DNA from: Ricordea florida
Taxonomy: Eukaryota > Cnidaria > Anthozoa > Corallimorpharia > Ricordeidae
Direction: 5' to 3'
Assembly (NCBI GenBank): GCA_949710005.1
Contig: OX453275.1
Location: 22,503,191-22,567,190 of the forward strand
DNA: 64,000 bases
The notes under the pieces are model-generated. The model worked only from the letters and a program-made list of their open reading frames with translations. It made no database searches and had not been told where the DNA came from. Shown piece after piece: positions 13,621 through 58,448 of the stretch. How positions within the stretch are numbered: the stretch's first letter is position 1; each line of letters begins with the position of its first letter. The position numbers were made by a program, and so were the translations under genes.

Positions 13621-13650
13621 GGAATGCTCATTGAGACTATGATATGACAC

Positions 13651-25536: not shown

Positions 25537-28500
25537 ATGGACCTCCTTAGGCATCACTACATGTACCCGTATCGCCTGCCACTAAACATGAGATACGGAG
25601 CCGTATCACCTTACCAAGTGCTGACAATCCCGCGTTGCACCTGTGAGTGTTACTGTGAGAGAAGTCGGGTGAAAATCATGGAAGGGGAGAATCGTCACCT
25701 ACCAGACTCAATCGAGGCTTCCCGGTTGTTCGACGATCATACAAAAAATGGTGTGTATTTAGACAATTTTTTTTTGTATTTTGAGCAAAGGAGAAAAGAA
25801 CTGGTTTCTGTTTGCATCTCAGATTTCTCCAAAAAGGAATTCGATGCTATGATTTCAAAGTTGTACTATCTGAATTCAAGTTCCTCTTTATTTCTTTGAT
25901 GATTTCGACATTAAATCCTTTTTTATCTTTATATATCCTATCATCAGGATGGAAGAATAGCAAAAAATACAAGGAAAAAGCATATTCACTGAGTGCAATT
26001 TAACAAATTGCATCGTTTTAACTACTGGTGCACCTTAATCTGACTGATTTTATTAAACTGTTTTACTGCTTGTCTGAAAACGTGGACACGATATTGGATA
26101 TCCTGTCGGGATTCTGAAGATTTACACCCAAAAACCCGTAGAAAAAGTTACTGAGCTAAACAAAAGCATCTTCATTTGTGAAGTCCTCTGCATTCATGTG
26201 TAATTAAAGAGAATTTTCCAAGTGTTATTTGTGCGTTAAGCAGAGCGCGCCAGCTGGCTTTCAATTCACAGGCTAATCTCTTTCTACTTCGATTAGGTTT
26301 TGTTCAGCAAACTTATCGCTTTTAAGAACAATGCTGTAACGAATTATCTGAGATTTGGCTTTCCGTATCGGAAGACCTTTGTTATTCTTGATGCCTGTTC
26401 TTAAGCGGCTAATTTCAAAGCTATTTATAAACCCGAAGAGTACCGAATAAACTAGGAAGATCGTGTTTTGAACCGAACTTTACCAAAGTTCAACCAATAT
26501 TACGCTATTCAATTCTAGCCCAGAATATCGTTCTTTTTCTATCAAGACGCATTTAAATTGGTTCTGCCCTGCGTCAGTCAAAGCGCACTCTTCGACCCCA
26601 AACTGTTTCGAGAATTTTTGCTTTCGGCCGAGAGCAAAATCGTTGAATTAAACGGTGTTTATGTGATGCATTATTAACTTAATATTATTATACTAATGAT
26701 GTAATAATTACGTATATAGAACACAGTTTAAAATCCAAAACAAAATGAGATGTTCCCATTTCTTTACGAAAACGTGTCGTCAGTATTTCTGCTAGATGTT
26801 CTTTTGCGCATTTCTAGTTGCTTTCTAATCCACTGCTGTGACTTGTTCACAGTTCTGCGTTTTGTGGCTTTCACCCGACACAGTTAAAGTTTCCAATTGA
26901 CTTTCCTCACAATACCCACCCCGCGACATTAATTTGCGGTCTTCATTTCAACCCAGTCATTTTTCGTATCATGAAAATCTCTTAGCGATCACAAATATTA
27001 AATGGACGCTTTATTTGCCTTCAATGTTTTCCAATATGCCACTCTTTCCAAACCCGATCTTGACAAAAGGTTCAAAGTTATTAATTCTCAATCATACTTT
27101 TCGCTGTGGTACCTTTAAACAGCTGTCGGATTCGACCCGCCTATTCCAGGATGGCGGTTCTCGCCAGCGATATCTAAAACAACTCAATTCACAATATTTA
27201 GCTGGATACAAAATTCACATCATACAAGTATGTCGTTATTTCTTTGTGATCGCGGGACGAAAACTGTGTTTACCTTGAGTATAGTGCTTCCATCCTTATA
27301 GCTATTGCGAACGATTATTACGGATTCAATTCCGTATTGAATAAATATGACGGGTTCGTGAGCTTTAAATTCTAGATATTAGTTATTTGTCTAGCGCAAA
27401 TCTTACTCTCTCTTGGGATAGTCCGGCCCAGTAAAAAAATAAAAAATAAAAATATAAAATAAAACAAAAGAAATAATACTTGTTGTATGGCATAGCTTTC
27501 TACAAAAAAGAAATTTTTGCAAAGCCTATATAGACAACTGCAGAATCTTTTTAAACTTGTATAAAGGAGATAGTTCCTATAGAAACTAAAGAAATTGGAA
27601 ATTGAATCACACTGAGAAAGAATGGTTTTTAAAACGAATTGATAACATTTTTTTAACGTTTCGAGCGTTGGCGCTTCGTCAAAACAGTTTTTAAACTTCT
27701 AGTTTCGTTTTCTTTTCAGTGCTAGCTCAGACCTAGGACAAATATCATTTGAAGCTAATTTTTCCGTGCTTTTTTTTGTTATGCAATGTAATAAACTGGA
27801 ATCTTACATGGGGTTGCCAGTATAGTGGGAAAATGCACAAATACAATGATTGACTTGTCTTACTGATAAAAATAGTTTCGCCCGCAGATCTAACGGACCA
27901 AGTAACAGTTTATACTTAGCTAAATTCCTTAAATGAGCTTTATTCAAATTACGAATATTCTCAACAAGCTAAGTTCAGTTTCAACTTGCGAATTTCCGAA
28001 TGGCTTGAATAGAACACAAATTCCAACGCGACTAACAAAAAAGGCACGACTGCGGATCGCACTTATCTATGTCGGATAAGCAAGTTACCTTTTTAATTTT
28101 GTGAACTGTCGGATAAATGAACAAAGGCTGTTTTCATTGAAATGACAAGATCTGTTCGTGAGAGGAAGTTGTCACCTTTCTTTCCTAACAAGAAAGGCCG
28201 GTGTATTTTACCACCTTGAGTGAAATGTGCACACACGCTAGCAGCTGGGACGCGATGGCAAACGCATGTCTTGAGCTATGTAAACATGTCTCTTTCAAAC
28301 AGCACCTCTAGCTCTTCAAACAACGATTTAAGCCACCAACTCGAGCTATTGATCTTTAATAACTGCAATACTATAGAATAGGAATCGTTGATAAATCTGT
28401 CTTGATATAAACAGAATGATAATTGAGGCGAATCAGTCTAACCAACAGACTAGCTAATTCATTGCTATGAATGACAACCAGTTTATGCAAAGTTAGGTTA

Positions 28501-31030
28501 AGTTGGGTTAGATTTACGTTTTGAAAATGAAGGTGGTAGATTGTGCTCCTTCATTTTCTATCAAACAAGACCTTGTTTTTCTAGAGATGTATTCAGGTTT
28601 GTTGGCCAAGATCTGAGTCCTGCCATTGCTAAACAAAGGCAGAAATAGTTCGCTTATATTGTTTTCCAATTAAAGAAAGCACAGAACAACTATATTGGCA
28701 AGATTAGATTTCAAGAAGAAAAACGTTCAGTTTGACGGTCAGCTGAACATCAGTTGGACCTTGATGAGATCCGTTTAATGTGGTGTTAACTATTGTGCAC
28801 TACACTAACCTTCTCCGCCTATTAAACTTTAACATGTGATCCCTCAATGCAACAGAGAGGTTTTCACGTTACTCTTGCTAAACTCAAAACCAAAGGAACG
28901 ACTCTGCGGAAGCACTCGATAAGGGACGTCAAGTTGATTTAGTCTTTTAGATTTTTCTAAGGCTTTTTGATCGTGTTCCCCATAAAGTCTTGCTGCAAAA
29001 GCAGCTTTGTAATCTTGGAATGCCTGGGAGCCTGCTGAACTGATTTAAGACTGCGTTGGTAACCTTTTAGTTATAGATGTTTATAGATGATTATTCTTCC
29101 TCTTTGTTGGAAATTACATTCGGTGTACTACAAGGCTCCATCCTTGGGCCATTATTGTTTGTAATTTTTATCAATGATTTACCTGATGTAGTCTGTTCTA
29201 AGAATACCATGGCACTGTGTGCAGACGATAGTAAGATGTTTAGATGTTTAGCAACTGCTAAAGTAATTGCCAGTTACTTCTTTCGATCACCGAAAACCGC
29301 TCTATCAATAAACTGTCGAGAAAGCCATGACAGGTTATCATGATCACAGTTCACAAGTGCTGGATTCTCCAAACTAACATATAAGAAAAAAGTATGGAAT
29401 TCTTCAAGGAGAATTGCTATTCAGATCTGGGGAGTGAAAGAGTGGACGATTTCTTTGTAGTGCGCTCGTATTTTTTAAATCGCATTCTTAGTGTTTGGAT
29501 TTTTGTGCTCTAGACTTCTGCCAAGACAAAACGGGTCGACGGAATCGTACAACGTACAAGAGATGGCAGATAGACGAACTGGAACGAGCCTTCGGTGTCA
29601 ATCCTTATCCGACCAGCGTGTTCAAAAAAACTCTCGCATTGAGACTGGGGCTCAGGGACTCACGAGTTCAGGTAAGGGGACTGCGTACCAAATACAAAGA
29701 AGAACAGGCTGAATGGAAGTACTGTTCATAAGCTTTCCAGCGAATTCAGTCTTCATCGCTTCATATGATTTCAGGAGCCCATCGATTTCCATTGGCAAAA
29801 CAAAGTGTTCAGAGAAATCAGAACACTTAAACATTTCGCAAAAATGTTTTAGTATATACCAACTCATCAATCTTGGCATTTTGAGTAATCGGATCGGCTC
29901 GCTGGGGACCCTTCAATTTTTACGAGGGAGGGGGGGGGGGGGGCTGGTGGTATTTAGCGGGGGGCATGCGAAAAAAATCAAGGAAAATGGGGGGTCACGT
30001 AAAATACTTTACCGATACTTTTATGTCACAATTTTTTAATCTTTTTCTTTTTATGGGGGGGGGGGGTTATGTAAAAAAAATGGCAAACTGTGAGGGGCTC
30101 ATGCAATTTTTAAATAGTGCTTCCCGAATCCCACCAGCCCCCCCCCCCTCCCTCATAAAAGATAAACGGTCCCCTATCTCGTTATATTCACCTCATACGA
30201 GGTGAATGTTGCCAGGGGCTTCAGGGAAATCCTCGTGCAAGTGAGTTTAAGTAATATGGAAAGGCCTGTTTTTGGAATAAATTTTCCTCGTCGCTTTGAT
30301 GTGACTGAGGTTGCTTCATTGGTGTAGACTAAAACAATTATTTTCTTCAGTGTTGGTGAATAGTGTTTGTAGAATTATTTACATCGCTTTCTGAGAATTT
30401 TCAATCAATCAATCAATCAATACTTTATTTCATTGATTGATTGATTGATTGATTCTTCAGTCTCGGTGAATAGTGTCTGTAGAATTATTTACATCGCTTT
30501 CTGAGAATTTTTGTCAATCATTGCCGTTAAACCTCAGCTCGTTTCACTTATGCTCATAAATGACCGCAAGCATTTTTCAGTTAGTGCTTCATGTCAGACA
30601 GTTCAATTTGTACCTCATTCCCTTGAAGCTGAGTGTTTGTCACACCGGTTTACGGTCGTTTCGCCCGGATGGTCAGTTCGCCCGAAACCAGTTCTTCCGA
30701 ACTGAAGTCGTTTCTCCCGAACCTTATAAGTCGAGTAATAATTCGCCCGATCGAAAAGGCGGTTTTCTTGGACTATTTTTAGACCGTTTCAGTTATTAAA
30801 CCAGTTGCAAAGTTTTCTTAGATCAGTTTCTCGACTATTTTAATAAAATAAGTTCGAATCCCGGGCAAATGCGTACCCTGGTCCGTATGTGTATATGGTT
30901 CAGTATACTTGAAACTTTGTTCTCGAACAGGTATTAAGTGTCACGTCGAAACAGTTTTAATCACGCTGTTATGCAAACGAACTTTTTTTATCCCTAGACT
31001 TCTTAGTCCTGCTATTACTGAACTCTGGGC

Positions 31031-31062
<32 letters not shown>

Positions 31063-31802
31063 GTTTATTGACACTTCTGGCAGTTCAAACTGAATAAACA
31101 TTGTAATTTACAAGAAATTTACAAGCTAAAACTAATAACTTTACAAACTAAATCTTATAACTAAGATAATAATAATATATTAATATATCTATGCAAATCT
31201 AAATGTAAAAAAGCCATTCGCTCTCTTAGTCCTTTTCATTGTTCTCGTAGCCATAGTATTTCCTAAGGGCTGGTTCACACTTTGACATAAGCATAAGCAT
31301 AAACATAAGCATAAGAAAAATATGTGTGAACCGGGGTTACATAAGCATAAGCATAAGCATAAGCACAAGGAATGGAACTTTTTCCATTTTCTTATGCTTC
31401 TGCTTATGCTTATGTAACCCCGGTTCACACATATTTTTCTTATGCTTATGTTTATGCTTATGCTTATGTCAAAGTGTGAACCAGCCCTAAACGACTTGAG
31501 TTCGGGCAAATCGACTTCTAAAGTTCGGGCGAACTGGCCATCGGGCAAAACGATCGATCACCTTAGTTACATATTCTTCGTTATGATTATCATGAGTATT
31601 TTTGAGTTTATTAAGGGTCAGTCCTAAAGAAAATGATAAATCTTATTTTCCGCTGCAGGTTTGGTTCCAAAACCGTAGAGCGAAAGCTAAGCGAGAGAAA
31701 TATGGCTCGTCGGAGACTTACAGCAATGACACTGAAACGGAATTGACTGAAGAGGAACAAACGAACGAGGGGCATACCACTGATATCGAAGACAGCAAAT
31801 GA
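25537..31802 (+). CDS. PRD-like homeobox gene 1 (three exons proposed)
   Basis: Proposed exons 25537-25750, 29514-29671 and 31659-31802 give 171 residues. The homeodomain, residues 79-138, is clear: RRNRT at the start, W48-F49-Q50-N51, R53 and the invariant L16, F20 and R44. Gln at position 50 with no paired domain seen marks a PRD-like transcription factor. The intron between homeodomain residues 46 and 47 (CAG|gtaagg to gctgcag) is typical of this class. Exon 2 is 158 nt and starts in phase 1, exactly as in the UNCX-like gene at 55260. The 5' exon is less certain: its ATG has a good context (A at -3, G at +4) and two possible phase-1 donors, after 25750 or at a GTGAGT after 25642. The shorter choice would drop the CTCECYC cluster (residues 34-40). 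A short acidic tail follows the homeodomain, with no OAR or EH1 motif. The introns contain transposon remnants. Likely a nuclear DNA-binding regulator; orthology is not settled. Confidence 0.7.
27570..27720. repeat. Dispersed repeat fragment with Penelope-end-like phrase (intron 1)
   Basis: The phrase aacgtttcgagcgttggcgc followed by cttcgtc matches that at 9140-9175 (gacgtttcgagcgttagccc). The preceding 'atagaaactaaagaaattgg' resembles 9020-9050. It is a short remnant of the same dispersed family. Confidence 0.5.
28860..29345 (+). pseudogene. Non-LTR reverse transcriptase remnant (intron 1)
   Basis: Frames across this stretch give 'FDRVPHKVLLQKQLCNLGMPG', then 'GVLQGSILGPLLFVIFIND', then 'CADDSKMF', which are palm motifs of a non-LTR reverse transcriptase. 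The first part is broken by stops and frameshifts. It is a dead fragment inside the first intron of homeobox gene 1, in the same orientation. Confidence 0.75.
30343..30512. repeat. Direct ~58-bp repeats flanking a (CAAT)n/(ATTG)n core
   Basis: The phrase starting ttcttcagtgttggtgaata at ~30343 recurs at ~30453 as ttcttcagtctcggtgaata, and both continue through 'ttatttacatcgctttctga'. Between them lies only (caat)n-tactttatttc-(attg)n. It looks like a very short insertion flanked by a long target duplication. Confidence 0.7.
30654..31560. mobile_element. Inverted-repeat element with TTCGCCCGAA-like ends (intron 2)
   Basis: The left end has tcgtttcgcccggatggtca then gttcgcccgaa. Reading the right end on the other strand gives tcgttttgcccgatggccag then ttcgcccgaa, so the ends are ~37-bp inverted repeats. 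Four more TTC(G/T)(C/T)CCGAA-like words follow at the left and two at the right. No transposase frame is present. A smaller hairpin MITE and an (aat)n run (31031-31061) are nested inside. Confidence 0.6.
31267..31487. mobile_element. Hairpin MITE with TAA target duplication
   Basis: A 221-bp near-perfect palindrome. Both ends read gggctggttcacactttgac and the arms (~95 bp) are full of cataag repeats. It is flanked by taa at 31264-31266 and 31488-31490. A 3-bp TAA duplication and a G-rich terminus fit PIF/Harbinger-type MITEs. The cysteine/leucine repeat frames across it are artefacts of the cataag repeat. Confidence 0.85.
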
Positions 31803-32081
31803 AAATTGTGTCATGTCCAAAGCTAACGACTATACCAGATATGTCACAGTAGATGAAAGAATGCAGTCTACATCAGCCAGTATTAACCCATTTCACTCCC
31901 CAGATCTGAGTAATTATTCTCCTTATCGTGGGTCATACATCCCCTTATATATTAGTTTGGAGAATTTGGTACTAGAGCCATTCATTATCCTTGAGGTGAC
32001 CATTCCCTCAATTCTCACCACCTGTTTACTCGATAGTGTATTGACGGTGTTAGGATAAGTTGCATATTGATCTCCTCTAAG

Positions 32082-32087
32082 AATAAA
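32082..32087 (+). terminator. Candidate poly(A) signal of homeobox gene 1
   Basis: AATAAA lies 280 bp after the stop at 31802, and I see no closer canonical signal. Confidence 0.4.
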
Positions 32088-32211
32088 ACGGTAATCATGG
32101 TGACCTGGAGCAGGTTCCTAGAACCTGACATAGTGTTTGATCCTAGAAAAGCACCAAACAGGGACTTCCTAAAAAATCCAACTCTTTTTTTGTGGAGGGG
32201 AGGGTGGGGAG

Positions 32212-32214
<3 letters not shown>

Positions 32215-32264
<50 letters not shown>
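32215..32264. repeat. (GA)n microsatellite at the 3' end of a non-LTR element
   Basis: About 24 GA dinucleotides end directly at the 3' boundary of the minus-strand retroelement that follows, the same arrangement as at 9529-9568. Confidence 0.85.
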
Positions 32265-32271
<7 letters not shown>

Positions 32272-34420
32272 ATCATCGATTGGTAAATTCGTTCGGCACT
32301 TAAAATAGCAATGTTGGAACGGATGCGTCGTTAGAGATTCACTCTACCTGCTGCCTTCTTGTAAATTTTTTGAAAATGCGTTTCAAAATTAAGCGTCGGG
32401 TCCAGATGCACGCCGAGGTACTTATAACATATAGTGGTGTTGGTGGGAGAACCATTGACCGAGAGCTTGATTTGACAGCCTTGGAACAGATTCAACCGTT
32501 TACCAGTACCAAACAACATCACCTCAGATTTTCCCTTCTTCAGGTTAAAAATAAGTTCATTATCACGAAACCAGGTAGAGAGATTATCAAGCTAAGTCCT
32601 GGGAAAAGCTGCTTTGTATCGCGCTGATATCACTTGAGAATGTAAAAATCACCGTATCATCAGCCTAAGTGATGATCTTACAATGACGAAAGGGACTATG
32701 CACATGAGAATAAGGATGGGCTCAAGAATACTTCCTTGAGGGACACCAGTGTTAATTGGATTTGCTAGTTTAGATAGCAGACCATGAAATTGAACGATCT
32801 GCTTGCGAAGAAATAAATAATCAGTAAACCATTGTAGTTCCGCATCATATACGCCATAACGGGACAGTCTACTTAATAGAACAGAATGAGCTATGGTATC
32901 GAATGCCTTCAATAAGTCAATAAAAACTGCCCCTGTTGCCTTACCACTGTCGGTCTCCTTTCTGATGAGATCAGTAAAGTTACTAACAGCCAGTCCCGTT
33001 GAGCGATTCGGACGGAAACCAAACCGGCTGGCACTCAAGAAGTAGACTGTGACGCTCTAGATGAGCCATCAGCCACGCGTAGATTATTTCCTCTAGTATC
33101 TTGGACAAAGTAGGGGGAATTGAACTGATAGGTTTGTAATTGTTAATCTCAGCCAGAGACCCAGATTTGTAAAGAGGGATCACCTTTGCTACTTTCCACT
33201 CCCTAAACACAGCTCCAAGAGGCAAATTGATGATAAATGTCAAAGACTTAGTCAAAACAAAAGCAGCGTCTTTTAATAACTGTTTTCGCTTAATATTTCT
33301 CAGCTTCTTTAATAATTTCTGATTCTTTCACAGCTTTAAGAGTAAACTGCCTTACCGTAAATTGATTGGGAAGATTTTCTTCAGCAGGTTTGCTCCAGAC
33401 AAAGTCACAAAAAAGATAGATTTCCATTTCGGATTTCTGGCAATGGTACTGAAATATTCGCAAAAGCGCTAGCTATAAGCAGTGAAGTTTTGTCAGTTGA
33501 CTTTCATCCATTTATCTAAAACGCCTAACCCTGATCAGAAGGTGACTTAGTAAGATGGAGTTTCTTGATAACTGCCCACATTTATCAGGAGTGTCAGCAC
33601 AATCTTTAAAGAGGTCTCGATAATTTCGGTCGTTGTATTTTTTAACAAGACCAGAGACTTTGTTGCGCTGCCGTTTATAAGAAGACCAGTCGTTTTCTTG
33701 ATTAGTCCTGCTGGCTCTACTGAGCAAACCATCCCTGAGATTCATCTCTTTTTTGACATCCGGAGTCAGCCAAGGACATAGTCGGCCTCTGACCTTCTTT
33801 GAAATAGCAGGAGCATGCTTGTTGATACATTGTTGCAGAATGCCACGAAAAGAGGCTCAAGTCTCACTTATGCTGATAGATGAATAAACTCCTTCAAAAT
33901 TCGGAGAATTTAGTTCTTCACAAAATAGCTTAGGGTGATAGTTAGCACAATTTCGGTAAGTAATGATTCGCGGATTGAATTTAACATTATTCAGCTTGCG
34001 AGCACATTCAATGAGTTCATGATCACTTAGGCCAGTTGGGATTACTTTCACCGAAGAGATGTTATGTGGTTCGTTGCTGCAAACAACATAAATGAGGGTC
34101 GCGCATAATTCTCGTGGGGCTGTAATGAGAGTTTCAGACTAAAGTAGGTGAGAATGGATTTCATTTCTTTGTGACCCGAGGACACCACAAAATTGCAGTT
34201 TATGTCACCAAAGAGAAAAATTCCTTGTTTTCAACTGATACTGTCGAAGGCGTTGATTTAAATTTGCAATTAAAATTTACACAGAGATGTTTAGAAGAAT
34301 ACGGAGGGCGGTAAATAACCTCGACTAGAAAACGTTTGGTTTTAGGAAATAATATTTCAATCCAGATGCACTCAATATCCTCTTACTCGAAGTCCATTCG
34401 CTTCTGAGAGGAAGAAGATG
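32265..34420 (-). pseudogene. Non-LTR retrotransposon remnant with endonuclease and RT pieces
   Basis: On the minus strand, from high to low coordinates: an endonuclease piece 'FGDINCNFVV' near 34200-34240 and 'TGLSDHELIECARKLN' at ~33990-34035 (GDxN and SDH motifs of an apurinic-type endonuclease). Then comes a linker frame at 33512-33745. RT frames follow at 32983-33255 ('WKVAKVIPLYKSG') and 32649-33038 ('RFGFRPNRST', 'VFIDLLKAFDTI', 'NTGVPQGSILEP'). Last is 'CYKYLGVHLDPTLNFETHF' at 32331-32522. Several frameshifts and stops break it and its 5' end is missing. It belongs to the CR1/L2/jockey-like group; the (TC)n tail is shared with the copy at 9569. Confidence 0.85.
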
Positions 34421-34589
34421 AAGCAATATAAAAATGATTAAAATATTTTTAATAATTGAAATAATATTGAAATAGTTTTACCTTTTTTTGTCTATGCCAG
34501 TCAGTTATAGCACAAAGGCAGGCTAGTAGTGGAGCCGACTAAATGAATTAAAAAGCAAAATTCATATGAAAAATATCAAGGTTAAGAAT

Positions 34590-34725
34590 TCTAACAGGTT
34601 GGAGACGAACCAGGTAGCTATTCACAAACCTGGTGCTGGGATTTGCACCCACAACCAGGACACGTGGACAGTGCAATAAATCAGACCACTCGGCGCAGTC
34701 CCTAGGCGTTCCCTGCTCAGTTAAG
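34590..34725 (-). mobile_element. tRNA-derived SINE with Leu/Ser-like head
   Basis: The minus strand reads gccgagtggtctga (A-box region, plus 34681-34694), and after about 30 nt gggtgcaaatccc (B-box region, 34638-34650). This is the pattern of a class II tRNA such as Leu, but the intervening arms are wrong for a functional tRNA. The downstream sequence looks like a SINE body. Confidence 0.45.
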
Positions 34726-36507
34726 CCTGGATCCCACTTTGCGTCAGACTTCGGATCGATGAGAAGATTAGAAGAAACGCCTAGTAACTACGCTGCACTC
34801 CACATAAACATTATTCGAGGATGGCTTAGCACCATTCATTACAACTTAACAGTTATTAACAAACGTGTTTAAAACAATGACGCAACAATGTCTTGAAAAA
34901 GGCGTTAATTAAATGGGGTTGTAGTTGTAAAGAGATTTAAATCCGTGAGAGTAATAAACGATAGAAAACCTGCTTTTGTCAACGGCAAAAAGTCCGATCG
35001 TTCTATTGGTCCTGTAGGCTGGGCTTTCGCAACACAGGGATAAAATTCCCAAAGCTATCAAGAATATTGATTCACCCTTTTGCTCAGATTCAGCAGAAAG
35101 AAATATGCCAAGACTGTATAGCATTTTCATCGGCTGAGAGCGGTTTTCAACTCACTGCCAAAGTTAGTAGCGATTTCATTGGCTTTGCATCGCTACTATA
35201 AGTAATCGGCTGGCAAGTAAGTAGATAATAAATGATGTATATCGGTAAGTAAGGAAGTGAGTAGGTAAATGAGAAAGGTAGGAAGTCATGCTTTTTTCTC
35301 AACTAATCAGAACTTAAACTAAAATCATTCGTTATAAGACGGGATAAGACACTGATAAACACGAAATGAGTCAAGGTTTGATAAAACATGGTGAAGCAAA
35401 AGACATGATAGAACGAGCTAAAATAAAACAAGAGCTGACAAGACCAGGGGAGGAAAATAGACTTGAATGCGTTGATGTTTGCTGTGCATGTTCTCACTCA
35501 GTTTAACAGCTTTTCTTATCAAAATGCAAAGCTCGCATTTCTGAGCCCACTTCCTCTGTCAACACATGCCAGCGACTTGTCAAAAACGGTGAACCAACAG
35601 AAATGATGGTTTTAAGTTCGCTGGAAGTTGAATGTTACCATATCTATCGTGCATGATCTAGTGTGAGTCGAGCACGCCTCTATTGACCTGCAGCTCTCAT
35701 TGTATGAATAGCGTGTACCACTGACCTTATTAACACTCAGAGGGGGAGAAATGCACGCAAAAAACGGAATTGTAATTAAAAATAAACACGTGTCTTTTTC
35801 GGACGATTTCTCGGCAATTTGTTTTTTGCTTGGATACAGTGCAGCTAATTAGCTCTAAGATCTTCTAGGTTATCTACGTTTCTTTTCGAAACGTACCGAA
35901 ATGAGTTTGCTCTAAGTCTAATGAAATAATCTTTCATTTTCTCTCTCGAATTAATAGTCTTTGAAGAATCGTGCCAGGCGAGTTATTCTTAGTTCTTTAG
36001 ATTAGTTCCACATACAACGACATGAATTTAACATTTTCATTAGGAATTTATAGACCCCACGGTTTCTTGTCATTGGTTCTACTCAGTAACTGAATGACAA
36101 CCTGTGTGTGTCTTGGCGGGGGATGCTAACCCAGGTCAAAATCAAGATCTGGAAATGACAAGTTTGTTTTCAGTAATAATTTTTGGATTGTTTTTCACTG
36201 CTCGGTGTATGGGTTGCAGTTTTGATGAAAACCGCTGCCTAAACCATATTCTAGTTATGCTGGCAGGATCTCTGATGAAAACGTCTTGCACTGGAAGGCC
36301 ACACGTAATCCATAACTGCACTTATTTTTTTCTCAAGCATCTCAGCGGGCCGGAATCCCAAATCCTCGAATCTGATTGGCTAATCGCGCGCTCGTAACCG
36401 GTCCAGCTTTTTACGATATGGACCACGGTCCGGATTTTTATCCGCGCTATTCGCGGCAAATTGAAATTGTTGCAAAAAAAAAGCAAACAAGCAGAAAAAA
36501 TAAATAA
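34726..36507. other. No gene recognised
   Basis: Short frames without family resemblance. A gtaag/gtaagta-rich patch lies at 35212-35282. The end of the stretch (36340-36500) looks like dispersed repeat sequence leading into the hairpin element. Confidence 0.4.
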
Positions 36508-36650
36508 GTTATTTACCGGCCTAGGTCGGTCCGTATGGGAAAAAACTGTGCCCTTGGTCTTGAGTAATGCCCTCGGCCTTCGGCCTCGGGCCGTACTCAA
36601 GACCTCGGGCACAGTTTTTTCCCATACGGACCTCCCGCCCGGTAAATAAC
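36508..36650. mobile_element. Hairpin (foldback) MITE, 143 bp
   Basis: The sequence starts gttatttaccgg and ends with its exact complement. The arms share gtccgtatgggaaaaaactg and gccctcggcc over about 65 bp, with almost no loop. No clear target duplication was seen. Confidence 0.8.
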
Positions 36651-36689
36651 ATATATGTATCTACAATGCACGTTCGTTCTGAAAGTTCC

Positions 36690-36990
36690 GTCTCTCGTTC
36701 GTGCAGCCACAGCATCACTCTATTCCATGCCAGTGACTGTATTGCAAAATAAATCGTACCACAGTACAGTACTGTTTTGTAGCTTTGCAAACAATGGTCA
36801 CACTGCATGGTTTGATCCCCAAATGAAAAAGTTAGAACCACACTGTATAGTGAAACAAACAGTACCACAGTACAGTACTGTGCAGGAGCTTTCTAAAGAA
36901 TGGTCATACTGCATGGTTTGATCTGACAGATGAAAAAGTTAGAACCACACTATATTGTAAAATAAACAGTACCACAGTACCGTACTCATT
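36690..36990 (-). repeat. ~110-bp repeat family, locus 1 (inverted)
   Basis: Roughly 2.5 units with the core 'accacagtacagtactg', 'aatggtca.actgcatggttt' and 'gatgaaaaagttagaaccac'. The same unit occurs in the opposite orientation at 43831-44370 and, more degenerate, at 51210-51790. Confidence 0.8.
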
Positions 36991-37102
36991 TATTTATTCA
37001 TTTAGGTATTTGTTACAATTCAATGACAAGAAACAACGTCATCATTAGGATAGTCTAAAAGAGTCATAGACCCCATACAAAGGCAGACCACCTGAAAAAA
37101 GT

Positions 37103-37434
37103 ATATATATATATATATATATATATAAAGTGTAAAAGTTGATTAATCGTAAAACAGTGCTCAATACGTGAACGTAGAGCGAAGTAGTTGTTGCGGGAGA
37201 AAAAAACACACAAACAAACTACAGGTTTATCCCTACAAGCCTGTTTCGTGGTTGCCCACTCATCAGGGGATATCCAGGATATCCAGGATATCCAGGCACT
37301 GCAACTGATGAAGGTCATTGACCGAAACGTCTATTTTTATTAAATTTTTAAACTTTTTTTAGATTTTTTACTGTATATATATATATATATATATTTTTTC
37401 GCTCGAAGTTGTCCGTCCTCGTTTTCCACAATTG

Positions 37435-37475
<41 letters not shown>
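37103..37475. repeat. TA-rich microsatellites with Penelope-like end pieces
   Basis: (ta)n runs lie at ~37103-37126, 37374-37393 and 37438-37472. Between them is 'cacaaacaaactacaggttt', repeated near 37491 with one change, a threefold ggatatcca, and 'gaccgaaacgtc'. The last resembles the ends of Penelope-like elements. Confidence 0.6.
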
Positions 37476-37509
37476 TGTGGGAGAAAAAAACACACAAACA
37501 AACTACAAG

Positions 37510-38495: not shown

Positions 38496-38555
<60 letters not shown>

Positions 38556-47300: not shown

Positions 47301-50300
47301 AAGAGTGTCTAAGCTAAGACGCACCTGGTATAAAATGAATCTTTGAAATGTAAAGTTTTCTTCGCGCAAAATAATCCGGGAGCTATGACCGGATAACCTT
47401 ACTGTTGACAGCTGGTTGTCAACTTTCGATCCCCTCTTATCAGGTCAGACGGGATTTTTTAACGTTTCAACAGACCATTTTTCTTTTTCATAGCATAGGA
47501 GGTTTTCACTAAATGGCCCTTTTCAGCGTTACCCTTACCCTTGTCATGTCACCATTTAGCTCTCTCTCGAGAAACACACGAAAAGGAAGATACTGTGTGT
47601 GAATGACTGATGAGGGATGAATGAATAAGTTTTTTAGGCGAGGATCAAAGCGACCCCGTCCTATCCGTCGGCACCCCGTCACTCAAAAGACGCTTTGTTA
47701 GGATTCGATCCATGGGTCCTTTAATTACCTCCAAATATGCACAAAAATCGCATTGCTATTTCGTAATGGAAATTTAAGCAACACGAAAGGTAAAAAAAAT
47801 CAACTTTCCCACAGTCCGATTTTATGTAAAAGAGTAAAAGGAATTAAATTTGAACTTTATCTTAGCTTGACTATTTTATTCATAAAGTATTAACCCCTGT
47901 TTACCTATTTAGAAGCGAATTAATTAAAGGATGTACAAAAAAAAGAATGGGTTGGACGAAACAGTCTACCATTTCAGGTTTCAACGACACGTCGATGATT
48001 TTTTATTATAACGTTGCTTCAGTTCAGAGAAATGAACGTTCTCAGGTGTGATTATAACGCTAAACAAAGGAGTCACGGTGTTATCAGGAAAAAACTGTAT
48101 GCGTTTCTGAGGAATGTTGCGAAGCAAGAGGTTTAAGATTTTACTTCAAGAGGTACCTTATGTCATGTGTATTTTGTTTTCCTGCCCATAACAAAGCTCC
48201 ACTTGTTTATACCTGTGATGTAATCGAAATATTCACATACCGAATTCACCAAAGCTGTCTTGTGTTGTTTGTTATTTCAAACCGAATTACAAGACATCTT
48301 TTTCACTTTTCCTATATCAATGAACTTTTCGATTTCAAAATTCAAGTAATACCGTCGTATTGCACTCTTTTAACTTGTTCGTCTTTGGATGTAACCCAGC
48401 GATACTTCATGACCACTCACTGAACGATACTTATATGCAATAGCATTTATTACATACTTTACATTGAACACAATTTCAAAGTTATAAGATTATGTTCGGC
48501 TGGTTTCGTATTGTGATTTGAGATACCCAATTGTGCTCAATCATAAGCCTATGCGTCGAAATATGAAGTCGTTTGTTTATTTCTAAAGACAGTGGTGCTG
48601 CGTCTGCGGGAACTTGATCGAAATACGCAAAATTGAGGCATGAAACGCCTTGATAATTATCACTTGTACCACCGTAAGATAAAAGTGGAGCTGAGGTGCA
48701 TTTGTTGGACAAAATGTCCTCGGATTATGTGCTTGTTTTTTTTTATGGTTTTGATTTTTGGGTTAATTTTATATACAGCCATTTAGTCCTGGAGAAATGT
48801 GTTTAAAGCTGGGGAACCATAACCGCAAAGCAAAACCTGACAAGTTGAACTGAGACAATTTGCATCCGTTATGGTCAAGAAAAATCAATTTGAGCAGCCT
48901 TGTGGATAATTTACCACACTCAGAAAGGAAGGAAAAAGGCATTTGTCACTCACTGGAGAACACAAAAACAGTCACTCCCCTGGGGTCACAGGCAAACGAC
49001 AAAGCTATGTTACGAATAGTGATTCTTTTAACAGACATAGGTTTGTTTTGATGTGCTAAAACTCTTTTACCTCCAGAGCATCCCCTTTTCCAAGATCTGA
49101 GTTGATTCTCAATTTGTTTAAAGCCCGAACTAATGATTCAGTCAGATTATGTGCTTACTAACTGGGATTTGCGTATTCAGTTTGACTACAAGGGAGTATA
49201 GCAATGATACTTTCCGCCGGGAATTTCGACAAGCTGCCGACATACAGACGATGAAATGTTCAATCACTAGATTCTAGTAATACTTTTCTCTTTCTCTGCG
49301 TTCTGACCCCGCGAAGGAAATTTTAACTTCCTTCTCCAATTGTCCGCTCTTGGGTTTTGATGTTATCGCGTTCCCAGTAGAAGCCGCGTGATTTACACTT
49401 AGACTCTGAAATGTTTCTATTGGGAATGAATTTTGTCTTACAGTGCGGAGTAAGCCAAATTGCCTCCTTTCGGCTCTCACTGAAGCCTGCGTCGTTTGCA
49501 AAGGAGCACTGAAAAGATTTCTTTCTGCCAGTGACGGATTAGTAACAAGGTAAAGTGCACTGAAATGCCATGTAAAGCGATTACAATGCGACCCAATTTT
49601 AGCAGCCAAGTACAAAGGGGCTGGCAAGTTGTTTCTTGTACTTAAATCAATACGAGTTGTTAAGATCTTTCTGTTTCGTCCTACGATTGTACGCAATTAC
49701 TTCGTTCCGAAAATTCTGTGTTGTTCGATGTTTTCCCTAATAATATGGAGCAAAATCAATACCTTTCCAGTTCTACCAAGCTGACTGAGAAGTTCCAAAT
49801 TTCGGCGAAGGCAAGTTTACAATTCACAGTCTCTTCATAGCGAAATGTAAATATGAGACAACATACAGCTTCGTTCTACACTACCAAAAGTTATACAAAA
49901 TTGTCTATACAGTAACTTCAAAAAGTGTACACGGTGTATGTGCATCATTTCATGGCACGAGTTGAATGCCGTAAAATCTTAAACTACCGCTTTCCCAAGC
50001 GAGTATGTTGGCTTTCTCGTTTTATTCATAATCCTTTCATCTCATTCTATATTTAGTCTAACCCACGACCCCTTTTCCTGTGCATGACTTTGATAAATGA
50101 TTTTCTTGCTCAAAAGATTTGATTTGGAGAATCTAGCCCTAAAAGACAGTTTTGAAAATCTGTGATGTTGCTATTCAACTGAGTTATAAGGAAGAGCAGT
50201 AAAAGAATGATTTATCCAACTTTTCTTGGTGCACGTAATCCGTGATTCGCCAAAGAACCCCTTATAAACGACACTTATCAATGTTTGACACGTTTTCATT

Positions 50301-51200
50301 TCCTCCTGCTTTAACTGCGTTTTACATTCGAGATGACGATAAATCCCATTTTACACTATTTACTGTGTTAGATAGGATTAATGGTTTGAGTTTGCGTTGT
50401 TAAATTTTAAGGCAAATTCCTCGATTGAACCCTTGCAAGAGGTGGGCGGAGTTTTCAGTTATGTTAGTTGTGGGTGTTGATATGTTCAATTGGATCTCTC
50501 TATTTTCATTACCCAAGTTTACTCCCCTGGAATGAATAAATCTTTTAGCCATTTTTGCACATAACGATTTTCCATTTTGAATTTCGCAAGTTAAAAGCAA
50601 ATATTTGGATCCCGAGAATCATTCAATCAGTGAAAATCGTCAAACCCTTTCGTAACTGTGGTCCAAGATAAAGAAAGATAAAAATGTCGGATCGCCGTGA
50701 TAACTCGTAATTTTACCACTCAAGAAAACATTTCACCACAAGGAAGTGCAGACAATGTAAAACAACAAATATCTATGAAAGTAATTTACTTAACCGCTCA
50801 TACTAGGTATGAAAATGAAGTTTACATGTCGTGGCATTTTTAACCACTAAACTGATATCAGTCTTTTACTTTACCTTTAGTTCGTTTTACAGGCATTTCT
50901 TCGTTTTTTTCTGTACCGAAGAGTACATAAGTCTGCTCAGTTTACGATAACCGAGTCAGCACACTTTGTAGCGTAGACACTAGTATAAATGCAAGCACAT
51001 GATCACAAGGTTCGATGGTTTTCCTTTTACCTATGTCACGCGGGTAATTTGTCATAAGGACAGCTCCGCTAATGGAGCAAGTGGGTCCATTGTTTTTGTG
51101 CTTTGGGTTATGTTTGTACCTGTATCTCTGATTTCTTCCAAAAACCTGTTACATATGCTTATGCTTGCGTTCAGTCTTTCCTGTAGACAAACTCGTACAG
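44371..51200. other. Long gene-free stretch
   Basis: Nearly 7 kb without a frame resembling a known protein and with few repeats. A fragment of the dispersed family also seen at 8560-9137 lies at ~48570-48690 ('gtggtgctgcgtctgcggga', 'taccaccgtaagataaaag'). The frames near 45640-46066 and 49274-49696 are open but show no domain, so I do not call them genes. It may contain non-coding RNA or regulatory sequence. Confidence 0.45.
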
Positions 51201-51209
51201 CGCTCCTCT

Positions 51210-51790
51210 TCATTGGAAGCTACTGAACAGTACTATACTGTATTCCTGTTCTCTGTCCATTATACTGCTTGGCTTCTGGGCTTTCAATTTTTCACCAAAC
51301 AGTTCTCTGCTGTTGTGCTGTTGTTTTTTTTTTTTGTTGTTGTTTTTTTTTAATATACGGTGTAGTTCCAACTTTTTCATGTTTACATCAAACCAGACAG
51401 AAGCACCGTTCTTTAGTATGCTGTTTATCAATGCTGTACTGTGTCACTGTTCGTTTTACTATTCAGTGTGGTTTTAATTTTTCATCTCTGCATCAAACCT
51501 CTACTGAACCGTGCTATACGGTTCTCCTGTTAGTGTGGTTTTTCATCTGTGAATTAAAAGATACATTGTGACCATTTTTTTCTAAAGCTACCGAAGGCTG
51601 TACTGTGTGGTACCCACGGTTTGTTTTCCTATATTGTGTGGGTCCAACTGTTTCATCTGTGGATCAAATAATGCAGTGTGACCGTTGTATGGAACACTAA
51701 TGAACAGAACTGTACTGGGCTAATGTTTCTTTCCCTTACAGCTTCGTTCTAACGTGTTCATCTGTGGACGAAACCATGCAATGCGATTTT
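51210..51790 (+). repeat. ~108-bp repeat family, locus 3 (degenerate)
   Basis: Diverged copies of the unit at 43831 are visible from 'gaagctactgaacagtacta' (51219), through 'actgtactgtgtcactgttc' (~51432), 'tgtggatcaaataatgcagt' (~51658) and 'tgtggacgaaaccatgcaat' (~51763). Spacing is irregular, and poly-T runs interrupt it near 51326-51352. Confidence 0.65.
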
Positions 51791-51978
51791 TCTTTGGACT
51801 AGGGGCTAATGAACGATACTTTGATGCGGTACAGGTTTCGCACACCAGTTTTCCATGCGCTCGCTATCGTTATATTTCCAGCCACACTTAAGAATCTGTA
51901 TTTGAACTCCTTGAAGACCTAGACAACAGCTTGTTTAGTCATCATAATGTAACCCTCTTTAATCACATGTAAACAATG

Positions 51979-52072
51979 GGTTTATAGGAGCCCATAGTCT
52001 CTTAGCTATAGGCTATTAGCTTAAAGGTTTATAGGAGCCCATAGTCTCTTAGCTATAGGCTATTAGCTTAAA
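51979..52072. repeat. Perfect 47-bp tandem duplication
   Basis: The phrase beginning ggtttataggagcccatagt is repeated exactly at 51979 and 52026. No differences are visible, so it is very recent. Confidence 0.95.
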
Positions 52073-55000
52073 GGTGAGTTGCATTTTTTACGCTCGAGAT
52101 TTCAAGAGTAAAACCATCTCATGAATTCGCCGTTTAGATTTACCACAGTTGTAAGTTATATACTTCTATCGCAAATCACTGTTCGTATTAAGCGTGATGT
52201 ATGTTGTCTTCATGCTTAGAAACTGAGACTCTGTTTTCAGTTTCGCGTCTGAGACCATTGGTTTTTCATAGCCTCCTGGTAAATTCCTTCTCAATCGAAT
52301 ACTTGATAACTCAAAACAGGACACTGTAAAAGCTATAGGTAAAAGTGCTGTACCATGAAACTTATATTCAAAATGTACTACTAAGACGGGTAGCCCTTCG
52401 TGCCCGTGCATATCGCGAAATCTCAACCTCCGTGCGATTTAGGAAACAGTCAACCGACTTCTTACTATCGCGTCATATATTAAACATTAATTAAGAGTCC
52501 TCTACATCCTAATAGAGTTCGCTTTCCGCAGAATCCTCTACCGGCCTAGTGCTGGAAAGCAGCTTCATAAAATTGTCTTCATCTAGTAAGGTCAATGTTT
52601 TAGAAGTAATTAAAGACATCGAATTCGGTAACTTGCAATGTTAAATTTTGTCTGTGTGCACAGTTCTAGGCTTATTGTATTGATCTAAAAGTGTACTGTG
52701 AATTATAGTATATTAGCTCTGTACATGGGTTTCTTTGTTGGAAGTTTACATTCAGCGTTTACTTTCACGCGATCACACGACCGTGTCAAGCTTTATAAGA
52801 CATAATATTATCGTGTCTCAATTGAAAGGTGACATTTACTTAGCAGTTACATACTTGTAGACGAGCATCGCCATTTTGCCCCTGTATCAAGCGATAAAAA
52901 ATTAAGTCGGTAACACGAACATTTGGCAGCACTACTCGCTTTCTTCGCAGCGAAACGACCTAAAGTTCCTTTAGTCTGTTGAATTCCTAACGTGTCTAGA
53001 AATTCCGAAGAACTAAGACTGTAGAGAAACCAATAGAGCACATCACATTCAATGTTTCTTAAATCTCCAAGGTAGAACTGTACTGCCCTTCGTTTGCTGT
53101 TTGTACTGTTCGCATGAATGTACCATCATCAATGTACCATCACATTGTACGCAGTGTATCGACAATGTTAACGTTCCTCTGGAATAAATACCCATCGTTC
53201 AGTTTCTATTGACGCAAATGCAAACAAGTTGTTTGCAAAACGCAAAATCGTGTACCGAGAATTTGCACACTGACCACGAATCCACTAGGCTTGATGCGAA
53301 AAACAGATGTTTTTCTTGTGTCTTTTACAGAAAACGGTTCCGTCAACTATTTTAAACAATTTTGATTCAGTTCTTATGAAGCTAAGGCTCGCGTGACTCT
53401 ACGAAATATCGGGCCATGCCTTATTGCGTACCATTGTTTGTTGGTCGCGATTCAATTTTTGAGAACATTTATTAACAAAAATGTTGATCATTCAAGTTCT
53501 ACATCATTGTAGTGTCTTCCTTAAACACTTCTGTTAAACTACGTATGCTGCAAAGTGAGCGCAGTAACGTAACAGTTCAGATAACAAGGACAAGATGGTG
53601 TGGCTTGCTTCTTTGGGTGTGGCACCTTGTTAGAAAGACATTTCATTTCGTTCCTCCCGTTGGGTAGATTGAACCCCCCTTCTGATGGACGAACGAGTGA
53701 AGTGCAAAGCAGAAAGAAGTAGAGCACATCAAGCATCCGTAGCATGCTTTGTACAAAAAAGAGTCGCAAGCCGAAAACTGCTACATTCTCTAGTGAGTTT
53801 GGTAATAGCTAAAACATTATAATCCTCCGTGACGGATTGGATTAAGAAATCCTTTAACAATGCGTTCTCAGAGTGAAGTTCGTGAATTAAGAGTTTATGT
53901 TGCAATTGAGAGTTCGTTGCGATTTGTGAGTAAGATTCATTCGAATTATAGTGAGTTTATCAAAGGCAAAACATGTTGCTAGAAAGTACATGATTTATTA
54001 AGAAACGAAACCACAGGAAAAGTTTTATCAAAGGTCGAGAGTCTCAGGTCTGACGATACGTCCTAATTGAATTTCCGGACAGCAGAAAAATCCTGTCAAG
54101 ATGATCGGACGTTATTCCTGCTGACAATAATGAACCATTCCAGAAAGACGAATCAGCGCGATGGAGTTTCGATTGCATTCCGCTGCGACATCGTCGTGTT
54201 GTCGGCCCAAAAATAGATAACGGACTTTCATTTATCCCCTTACCGCCTCTTAACTATGCAAAACATCTCTCGACAAGCAAACGGTTAGAGCTTATTTTCC
54301 AACAGTGTTCACGTTCTCAAGTTAGAGAACCGTAAATCCAGTCACGTTTTGCATTCTAGGACTGACAATGGTTGTGTGGTCCGAGTGCAAAATCTCTCAC
54401 TACAGATCGTTCGAGCGATATGAAAACTATTTTACTAATTTAATTGTGAAAGGTGCTGGTTGAATCCAGATGCGGAGGTGTATTCTTCTCATTCAGCACT
54501 GCAGGACAAAAGACCATGCCGCGAGCATGTGAAGGTCCACTGGTCAATATGGCTAGTGATCGGCTTCCAGAGCGTTTATCTTTTCAACGCAGATGAATGA
54601 GGGATAAGTAAGTGATTTATAGCGTGTACTGACTGCGAAAATAATTTCACAAGAGCAGTAAATCTTGATCTGTACACTGTCAAACTTGATAGCCACAGTC
54701 GTATCAAAAAGGCATTACATACAAGTGGTTCTAAAACTCTCATAAATTTGAACGCAATACCATTGCTAGTGTCAGCCGGGACTAATCTCTGTTGGCCAAA
54801 CAGCGTAATTGTAACCCAACACCACCAAACTGTTTACCCAAGAGATAAGTCCCCTTACTATAAACAACCCGAGTTGCAAACAGTCACCAATTAGCGAGCG
54901 ATGTAGACAATCCAAACCACCCCGGCTCCGGTTGGTGACTTGCCGAGTGATGTCTCTGGCGTCGGGTCGGACGATTTTATCTATAGTAATTACTTTAGAC

Positions 55001-55179
55001 GTAATTAGATAATTGGACAGGTGACTTGACGGCTTGTTAGGAGAATAAATGGCGTGCAATCTTGTCTATTCTTGCCATGACTGCCAGTTGTCTTGGGTTT
55101 CTGTTAACAACTCGATGCGCGATTCTAACGAGGCGCCTAAAGCAGTGGACGTAATCTACTCTCTGGCGGAAGCCTGCGC
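52073..55179. other. Gene-free stretch upstream of the UNCX-like gene
   Basis: Three kilobases with only short, unconvincing frames and almost no recognisable repeats. As the immediate upstream region of a developmental homeobox gene it is a plausible place for enhancers, but no specific site could be assigned. Confidence 0.4.
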
Positions 55180-55187
55180 TATTAAAT
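55180..55187 (+). promoter_or_regulatory. Candidate TATA-like element of the UNCX-like gene
   Basis: The sequence gctattaaatccg lies 80 bp before the ATG. An initiator-like tcattttg follows at 55211, about 31 bp downstream, the usual spacing. The stretch in between and after is GC-richer than its surroundings. Confidence 0.4.
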
Positions 55188-55259
55188 CCGTGTCTCAAAC
55201 TCCGGGGCTCTCATTTTGACGCAGTTTTCGCGCCGGCATTTACGCCGCATAGACGGATT

Positions 55260-58200
55260 ATGGATTTTCATCCCCAAACCTTCAACCTCATGCTACCAGA
55301 AGGAGATAACTATGCGCACGCAGCCGCTTTGAGATATTCGTTTGGGCCTAAAGATGGTTTGGGGCCAGATGCAAATTTATTCCACTTTCCCGTCTCATTC
55401 GGATCTTTGGCGGAGCTCAATTCGGACTCCGATGTGGAGATAATCGAGGCCATAGGTAAACCATTTTAAGAACCATTTCCATTGGTTACTGTATCTTAGA
55501 TTTAATTTGATTCCAGAGGGTAATCCTCTCCCCGCGTTGCAATCAAAGTGAACCCTCCATTGTCTAAAGTCTTTTTGTGTTGCCGGTTCGACGTGATTTT
55601 TCCAGAAATTCCAATCTTACCCAAGAAGAGAAGAAGCCGGACAAACTTTGACGCTTGGCAGCTTGGCGAGCTAGAGAAGGTGTTTAAGAAGACACAGTAC
55701 CCTGATGTGTTCACACGTGAAGCACTCGCTCTCAAACTTGACTTGCTTGAATCAAGAGTACAGGTGAGCATGTGTTTTCCACAGCGACACGTTCAGCGAT
55801 TATCGCACTGTGCGCACTTGAATTTTGCGAAAATTGCCAGTTGTTTAGTTCGCATTTGGAAATATGACCGAGATCGTTTACGTCTACCAACACCTCTGTA
55901 TTGTAAGTTCTTGTACCTTTAAATTTCCATACGTATCCCACTTTTCCATATTTTATAGGAATTTGTGCTTTGCTTTGCTTTACCTTACGGCAGATATGTC
56001 TTAACACATCTGTTAGCTCATTTTGTTGCCATGTTCTTGTCTCTGGCGTTTCAAACCATACGTTTACCAGACTCAATTTTAGTGAAAATATTTGAACACA
56101 CTGACCGAGCTAAAAGATATTTCTCTCATCAAAACTGCGGAGATCAACTATTGTGAACTCCCTCACCATCATAAAAGTTTTTTTATCGTTAGTAGCAAAC
56201 GAGATGGGGTTTGCAAAACAGACGGTTGATGTATGTTTGGAGGAGAAAGCCTTGCACGATATCCAACTGGGATGGATTGTACGATGTTTTCACATTTAAT
56301 TAAATTTGACCGGTTGTTGGGGATCAGTCATGTCAATAGCGGATTAAATAAGTCGTTGGTTTTTCTTTTAGAAAGACAAGTTCCACCACAACCATTTTCT
56401 ACTCTTCCGTTAGTTCGTTTTTCAGTTGTGTTGAACCGGTGAAGCCATTTTCCTATGACTCTTTTGAGAGTTACTGTTGTCAACTTATCGTCATGTCGAA
56501 CTCTTGCTGGCGGCAGAGAGTCGCCTTCAGTTTCCGTTATTTGCATCCCTGACTGGTTTCGTGTGGAGATTTTGTCTCGTATTCTCCACATAACATGAAC
56601 ATAAAGCCTTCAGACAACCCTTATCGCAGAGAATATCGGAAATTCTCGGGAGTAAAACTGCCTGAGACGAATGTTGTCGAGCTCGATATGAACATCACCA
56701 GTGGTAGTTGGGTCCCAGTTAAGGAGATGGATGCGTTTTTAAGCCTTTGTATCTTCACACCATTCCTTGTGTTAAAACGTTAATTGAATTAACTGCTCCA
56801 GTTTTAACGCGTATTGAGGTAGCGTTACTAGAAGGTGGTTTTTTCATAAGTGCTTTTGGTTACTTTGGAATGTCAGAGGATGATACAACGCTCAAACGCT
56901 TTGCTTCCTATTTTTCATACCTAATAATGGTGTTAAAGCGCTGGCGGTTTAATCGAGTAAAACCACAGTATTTCAATGTTTCATGCCGACACTTTTGAGG
57001 CAATATTTCTTGCCTAAAAAGCACTGCAAAATACAGTGAAGTACAAATTGCGATGCAACAAGGCACAGCGTTTGGCGCTCGATGAATTGAAACTATCATA
57101 TTGGGTGGAAAGTACACATTTTGAAGACCTTCGTGGGAAGTATTTCACGGCGAATTGCTACCTTAAGCGTCTATTACTTCCTTAGTTTAACCTTCCAGTT
57201 TTTCGGTTGTCAGAAAGTAATAAATTACTCGAGGCAGGGTCACGAATGATTAATAGTCTCGAAGAAAAGGAGTAACCATACTTAGAACTGACATATATCG
57301 AAAGGTAGACCCTCTCTATTGAGTAAATGCCTTTCGTGTTTCACTAAGTGACTAAGTAGGGTGATTTATATCACACACACATTCAAAGGTTAAATAATTT
57401 TTACATCTTTTAAAAACGTTCTCTTGGTCCTGAAAAGGAAACACTTATTTAGAATTCTCCAAAATATCCTGAGTTTGTTTATGTGTTTTAAACAGCGCCA
57501 TATGTTAAGCTGTTGTTTACTTGCTCAAGGCCAGCGTGGCCGCTTTCAGTTTTCTGCATCGGCATAATTGTCTTACAATCATATATGAGTAAGGTGAATG
57601 CTTCATCAGGAGGCCAAATATGTTTTCATTGAGACTGCGTTTATTCTCGCTCAGTAGGGTACGAGGATATGACCTTCTTTAGCCATTCTGTTCTTCTACA
57701 AGGTGCTGATATCTGTCTTGTCTGTTTCGAATATTATTTTCAGGTTTGGTTTCAAAACAGACGAGCGAAACTGCGAAGGGAGGAAAAGACAAAAGCTCGG
57801 CCTGGGAGAAGGGAAAAACGGCAGGTAGAGAAGGACGCCGTTGCATTTCAAATTCTCGACGTGTTTGAAAATGATTCTTCCCCGGAGGATAATACAGAAG
57901 ATGTAAACTTACGTGAATGTGATAAAAGCAACGTTTCGCTTCCTCTGCCTTCGAAATCATTTACCATAGACAGTATATTGTCTAGGAAAGAACCTTCGCA
58001 GGCCGAGGAACAAACCTCAGTCGTGGAGCTCACTGGTAGAAGTTTTCGCATCGAAAACCTCATTGACTCCAATAAAGAAAATGGAGGTAAAATGAAGAAT
58101 ACGGACTCCTTTACGCTAGAGAATGACAATGTTACAGAAAAGATTTCATCTCAACTTAGTTTGCGCAGCACTTCAAGTCATGAAAATAGTAGAGCTCAAG

Positions 58201-58448
58201 TGGGGGAAAATTTGGATTTAAACGCCTGTACTGAACAGTCGAAAACATCGGCCCCGCTGTATGTACCAACAGTAAAACAACGTGATTCAAGCCGATGCCC
58301 TGCACCACTACCAAGCAGACCCGACTCATCACAGGAGACCGCCGTGACGGTGGAAAGGTTTGAGACATTTCGTAGTTCAAGCATTTTGACTCTGAGAACA
58401 AGAGCCGAGGAGCATTACAAACAACTGCGCGTTTCTCTTGTTAGTTAG
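55260..58448 (+). CDS. UNCX: UNCX/unc-4-type paired-like homeobox transcription factor (three exons)
   Basis: Exons 55260-55455, 55606-55763 and 57744-58448 join in phases 1 and 0 (donors gtaaac and gtgagc, acceptors ttccag and ttttcag) to give 352 residues. The ATG has A at -3 and G at +4. The homeodomain spans residues 73-132, with R5, W48, Q50, N51 and R53. Its runs 'RTNF', 'WQL.ELEK.F' and 'YPDVF.REALAL.LDL.ESR' are those of the UNCX/unc-4 family. The following 'KTKARPGRR' resembles that family's 'TKKGPGRP' extension (recalled). The 46/47 intron is present. After the homeodomain come EH1-like repressor motifs FTIDSIL (191-197) and FRIENLI (219-225). At 329-343, '[15 protein letters not shown]' is a C-terminal OAR motif. 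Predicted nuclear, probably a Groucho-dependent repressor (inference). No paired domain. Orthology within PRD-class genes should be read as likely, not proved. Confidence 0.85.

Follow-up and report, generated by a model that had tools for sequence, protein, structure and literature searches.

The 64,000-nucleotide (nt) window of Ricordea florida DNA analysed here (22503191-22567190 of contig OX453275.1, called C4 below) carries two paired-like homeobox genes, gene A (25537-31802) and gene B (55260-58448). Coordinates are positions in this window unless a contig is named. Both genes lie on the plus strand and have three predicted exons, and they encode proteins of 171 and 352 amino acids (aa), respectively. 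The exon borders of A and B, and of the further gene C described below, are predictions from the sequence. Exon 1 of gene A (25537..25750, 214 nt) begins with ATG, encodes the N-terminal part in an open frame and ends at a GT donor with 1 nt left over; two adjacent GT donors were tried as alternatives, and both disrupted the frame. Exon 2 (29514..29671, 158 nt), set between an AG acceptor and a GT donor, encodes homeodomain residues 1-46, with tryptophan at position 11 (W11). Exon 3 (31659..31802) follows an AG acceptor and supplies residues 47-60, including the sequence VWFQNRRAK, and a short acidic tail that ends at a TGA stop. The core of the gene A homeodomain (L16, F20, W48, F49, Q50, N51 and R53) is unaltered. 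Gene B is built from an N-terminal exon 1 (55260..55455, 196 nt; ATG, open frame, GT donor, 1 nt left over), an exon 2 encoding homeodomain residues 1-46 (55606..55763, 158 nt; AG acceptor, GT donor, W11), and an exon 3 (57744..58448) that encodes residues 47-60, two eh1-like motifs and an OAR-like stretch in a frame open through to the stop. All four introns (3763 and 1987 nt in A, 150 and 1980 nt in B) are GT-AG, and the spliced reading frames are open. Intron 2 of gene A contains an inverted repeat (31266-31488) with 107-nt arms that are 96% complementary and lie 9 nt apart.

Both genes belong to the PRD class. Their homeodomains scored 71 bits (A) and 75.4 bits (B) against the Pfam model (cut-off 22.9), and a predicted GT-AG intron separates homeodomain residues 46 and 47 in A, B and C. 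The initial annotation had described A and B as linked in the same orientation, with matching middle exons and with homeodomains just over half identical, and these observations held throughout. The gap between the genes is 23.5 kb. Each middle exon is 158 nt long, with a phase-1 start and a phase-0 end at the 46/47 junction; homeodomain residue 1 sits 20 nt into it in both genes, and 32 of the 60 homeodomain positions (53%) are identical. All 26 open reading frames (ORFs) of at least 90 aa in the gap were scanned against Pfam, a scan that would miss host genes built solely of short exons; three exceeded the cut-off (two reverse transcriptases and one GIY-YIG), one fell under it and 22 had no match.

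The annotation's picture of just two genes proved too small. On the window scale, continued past both ends, gene C (75998-79588, or C4:22579188-22582778; 275 aa) lies 17.5 kb past gene B, and a near-identical copy of it, C' (-34540 to -31032), lies 57 kb before gene A. The order C'-A-B-C occupies a single strand and 114 kb in total. A 264-kb stretch enclosing the window was read, less 15,000 bases, and in the part read A, B, C and C' were the sole loci where an open exon encoded a homeobox helix-3 motif. A homeodomain search of the genome (537.8 Mb in 48 contigs), with 150 of 288 candidates scored, recovered B along with two further homeobox exons close by on C4; gene A was recovered only when its own sequence was the query. 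C and C' differ at one of 828 coding bases. A segment of about 12.6 kb containing gene C occurs twice on C4 (75893-88491 and -34644 to -22178, window scale), with the copies 110.6 kb apart and 99.4-99.5% identical, and the repeat starts about 105 bp upstream of the ATG of C. Either a recent duplication or an error of assembly may account for C'. Between C' and A, an ORF resembling linker histone H1 lies on the minus strand (C4, window scale -19518 to -18937; Pfam 96.6 bits).

What is the exon match between A and B worth? The initial annotation had taken it as a sign of tandem duplication from one ancestor. Such descent is likely, with W11 as the stronger support; the exon match contributes less than had been supposed. 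We compared the exons around 40 further PRD-type matches and recovered the 46-residue frame in 37, setting L059, L066 and L068 aside. Taking for each homeodomain exon the acceptor that ranked best on a rough score of our own making, we predicted a phase-1 start in 31 of these 37 other exons. One of the 37, L067, showed an uninterrupted homeodomain in the genome search and probably lacks the 46/47 intron. Among the PRD homeodomains of Nematostella, 31 of 33 are split by this intron (excerpt of PMC1779571), in keeping with the annotation's description of it as a PRD-class trait. Because of these two counts, phase and the 46/47 intron are class-wide, and we rejected them, taken alone, as proof of tandem origin. 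With the best phase-1 acceptors, 17 of the 82 pairs drawn from a shared linked group had exons of equal length, compared to 31 of 695 pairs between groups; under three stricter score limits the fractions were 12/66 compared to 26/597, 9/49 to 24/543 and 6/40 to 17/455. By these ratios, the shared length of 158 nt makes the odds of tandem kinship some four to five times higher, and we regard equal exon length as mild evidence for it. The acceptor of gene A itself is weak (score 0.9) and was lost at the strictest score limit.

Position 11 of the homeodomain sets the four linked genes apart. Of 41 rows compared, four had W11, namely A, B, C and C'; the 37 other PRD-type rows all lacked it. This count omits the three loci set aside (L059, with D at position 11 in its printed frame, L066 and L068) and draws on the genome search with 150 of 288 candidates scored. 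By our own arithmetic, the chance that the three distinct W11 sequences, out of 39 distinct sequences, would be exactly the linked three is 1 in 9139, with position 11 having been chosen after A and B had been seen. We take W11 to be a hallmark of the Unc-4/Uncx family. Because it is confined to A, B, C and C', the A-B pair probably lies in a wider Unc-4-type cluster. Over the 60 homeodomain residues, gene C matched C. elegans UNC-4 at 50 positions, UNCX at 48 and ALX4 at 43; gene B matched UNCX at 44, UNC-4 at 43 and ALX4 at 41, and gene A matched UNCX at 32 and UNC-4 at 31. A search of the PDB gave ALX4/aristaless-type chains as nearest for B and DUX4 as nearest for A, and no Unc-4 chain was found among the best 60 of 104 and of 115 distinct sequences. 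We consider it likely that A and B are members of a tandem, one-strand Unc-4 (Uncx)-type cluster together with C and C'. The family membership that we infer is firmest for C and least firm for A: Unc-4-type identity is probable for B and C, and likely but less sure for A, where it is grounded mainly on W11 and linkage.

The genes differ in the motifs that accompany the homeodomain. Gene B has two eh1-like motifs, FTIDSIL at protein residue 191 and FRIENLI at residue 219, both C-terminal of the homeodomain. In shuffled tails, a tight eh1 pattern, written after the motifs of B had been seen, occurred at 0.045% and a looser one at 0.24%. The EH1 motif of C. elegans UNC-4 likewise lies C-terminal of the homeodomain (excerpt of PMC4901127), as does the octapeptide of fly Unc-4 and OdsH (excerpt of PMC10917504). 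The presence of such a motif is not, in our view, a precondition for belonging to the family. Gene C carries an OAR motif at its end (Pfam 30.2 bits, cut-off 20.1). A stretch near the C terminus of B aligned with gene C with a score of 44, which none of 2000 shuffles reached. A Pfam OAR scan of the tail of B gave no match up to E 10, so we call the stretch in B OAR-like for its resemblance to C.

Trees of the homeodomain gave a mixed picture. With reference sequences included (46 rows by 46 columns), A, B, C, UNCX and C. elegans UNC-4 formed one clade with support of 99/94, and L038, an aristaless-type gene on contig C3, paired with fly aristaless. Without references, and with column 11 kept, B and C were sisters (96/81). 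With both the references and column 11 removed, a clade of A, B and C was not rejected (p 0.449); a tree with B and C together beat the free search and was not rejected either (p 0.649). A homeodomain tree had been proposed in the initial annotation as a check on common origin. Neither A nor B fell firmly into a distant family, but A was not firmly placed at all.

A number of results weigh against the assignment to an Unc-4-type cluster. The grouping seen in the trees hangs largely on column 11, because support for A, B, C and the references fell from 99/94 to 82/0 once this column was removed. The enclosing 95/86 group then also contained L041, and when A was left out as well, support for the clade was 80/0. 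With neither references nor column 11, no node united A, B and C, while without references but with column 11 kept, A joined a long-branched group of genes on contig C2, within a starred set of 9 (98/93). The ultrafast bootstrap was unsettled for the tree with references and all columns, for that with references and without column 11, and for that without both. Over 46 residues, A is nearest to two C2 genes (22 identities, compared to 21 to B and to C), and an Hbn-like gene is nearest to B (32) and to C (33), while B and C share 30; this Hbn-like gene is nearer to A, B and C than these are to one another, by 1 to 3 of 46 residues. The top non-self match of gene A in the genome was L038 (38.9 bits), compared to 35.6 bits for C and 34.0 bits for B. 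The homeodomain exon of gene C (exon 2) is 179 nt long, as opposed to 158 nt in A and B. Compared by blastp up to E 10, the peptides encoded by exon 1 in A, B and C had no mutual match, the pattern check found no eh1 in A or C, and the motif checks found no OAR in A.

How far do these results favour a different account? One alternative is that only B and C are Unc-4-type duplicates, with A a divergent nearby member of another PRD family in which W11 arose convergently. The very long branch of A, its shifts of position between trees and its top genome match to the C3 partner of fly aristaless all point this way, as does the lack of any OAR or eh1 common to A and B or C. Against it, none of the 37 other PRD-type rows has W11, and A lies on the same strand as B and has the same 158-nt exon. 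We judge this account unlikely, albeit worth keeping in mind. The short 171-aa product of A, its long branch and its repeat-bearing intron would also suit a decaying or unexpressed copy, which would leave the pair as effectively one working gene. Given three open exons, canonical splice sites and an intact set of core homeodomain residues, this seems quite improbable.

The account that we find hardest to credit is one in which A and B are related only by PRD-class ancestry, the exon match being an ancestral layout combined with a chance equality of length. It draws on the frequency of phase-1 starts (31 of 37 other exons), on the equal lengths among between-group pairs (31 of 695), on the near-universal 46/47 intron of Nematostella PRD genes (31 of 33; excerpt of PMC1779571) and on the tree without references and column 11, which does not unite A, B and C. 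Against it, A and B are linked inside 114 kb on one strand, and among 41 rows W11 occurs only in this cluster. We thus favour membership of A and B, along with C and C', in a tandem Unc-4-type cluster.

What might the members of such a cluster do? The predicted products of A, B, C and C' are sequence-specific transcription factors in which the Q50 homeodomain is intact. From the distribution of motifs (eh1-like and OAR-like in B, OAR in C and neither in A) we propose that B would repress its targets via the C-terminal eh1-like, Groucho-binding motif, as worm and fly UNC-4 do, and that C would be a DNA-binding regulator with OAR only. Gene A, as a short, fast-diverging copy with only a homeodomain, may compete for the same sites or may have moved to new ones, a shift of the kind put forward for OdsH in flies. 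Like this repressor function, the expression of the genes, the order of their duplications and the age of the cluster are matters that we infer from the predicted genes. A more tentative idea, to which we give rather less credence than to the cluster itself, is that ancestral motifs were parcelled out among the copies, with eh1 and OAR going to B, OAR only to C and neither to a fast-evolving A, in an independent repeat of the unc-4/OdsH history outside bilaterians.

If the family assignment holds, the locus is a local Unc-4 cluster with differences among its members in repressor and OAR motifs. An OAR motif is not known from bilaterian Uncx; its occurrence in Unc-4-type genes, if true, would point to an ancestral Unc-4 with OAR and to a loss of this motif in the bilaterian line. 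The cluster would then allow one to ask how a conserved regulator of neuronal identity splits after duplication outside bilaterians, and whether tandem copies of Unc-4 tend to yield one fast-evolving homeodomain, as in flies. If the assignment fails, the locus would be an ordinary local expansion of PRD genes, of which there are several others in the same genome.

These other groups include a 39-kb stretch at C2:32330833-32369754 with Otp-, Rx- and Hbn-like homeobox exons, probably a homeobrain-rx-orthopedia (HRO) cluster. Local arrays of PRD-type homeobox exons at C7:24021813-24097724, C2:29821104-30044366 and C2:5352275-5408116 are presumably Dmbx-like, PaxD-like and Otx-like, respectively. 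The genome also contains homeodomains that we take to be Pax3/7-like. Pax3/7 is listed for two anthozoans and not for medusozoans (Table 7, in an excerpt of PMC7642931). Within the window, a duplicated block (2410-6533 compared to 15794-19368 plus 21057-21594, about 96% identity) surrounds a 548-aa ORF without a Pfam match, and an 88-89% relative lies upstream of the window (-10048 to -8460). A tandem array with a 96-bp period and several identical copies occupies 7346-8413, and transposon-like ORFs with THAP and YqaJ domains lie at 12754-14838.

Among known systems, homeobox genes have been duplicated locally in the coral Acropora millepora, for which Hislop et al. 2005 (cited in PMC6214176) reportedly described tandem Nk2, Dmbx1 and Msx duplicates; these belong to other families. 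With the Unc-4/Uncx family in general, the present cluster shares W11 (the hallmark), the 46/47 intron, the eh1-like motifs of B and the agreement of C with C. elegans UNC-4 at 50 of 60 positions. It differs in the OAR of C and the OAR-like stretch of B, in the far greater divergence of A, and in that eh1 was not found in A and C. Published counts give two Uncx genes each for Nematostella and Acropora digitifera and one each for Hydra, Clytia, Aurelia and Morbakka (Table 7, in an excerpt of PMC7642931), while an earlier survey gave one UNC4 in Nematostella (excerpt of PMC1779571). Local Uncx duplications are described in Capitella, Drosophila, Saccoglossus and Ciona (excerpt of PMC6543554), and OdsH of flies, a tandem copy of unc-4, has a homeodomain that diverges more and introns that are longer (excerpts of PMC10917504 and PMC2779102). 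In view of these counts and duplications, of OdsH and of the Acropora duplicates, this kind of expansion is already known. Among the papers listed in searches of titles and abstract openings, which left subscription journals mostly uncovered, none described linkage between anthozoan Uncx genes, a weak negative, and the excerpts of PMC7305137 and PMC10719294 contained no mention of Uncx or Unc4. As expected, none of 198 matches in a pattern scan of prokaryote genomes was confirmed.

Two known linkages of PRD-class genes were considered and rejected for this locus. The HRO cluster of Cnidaria and Protostomia resembles it in being a set of linked PRD-class genes with the 46/47 intron, but unites genes of three families and occurs in several phyla (excerpt of PMC2938728), whereas the A-B-C cluster probably comprises one family; the otp-, rx- and hbn-like genes of this genome sit on C2. 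Uncx and Alx form a linked pair in annelids and hemichordates (excerpt of PMC6543554). In the locus as read, no other homeobox accompanies A, B, C and C', and the aristaless-type L038 lies on C3.

A close parallel is the unc-4/OdsH pair of Drosophila. There too, tandem Unc-4-type copies include one with a divergent homeodomain and longer introns, and the copies show no exon-1 homology (excerpt of PMC10917504), as was the case in our blastp comparison of A, B and C. The two cases belong to separate lineages, and OdsH retains the octapeptide except in D. mauritiana (same excerpt), whereas gene A has none.

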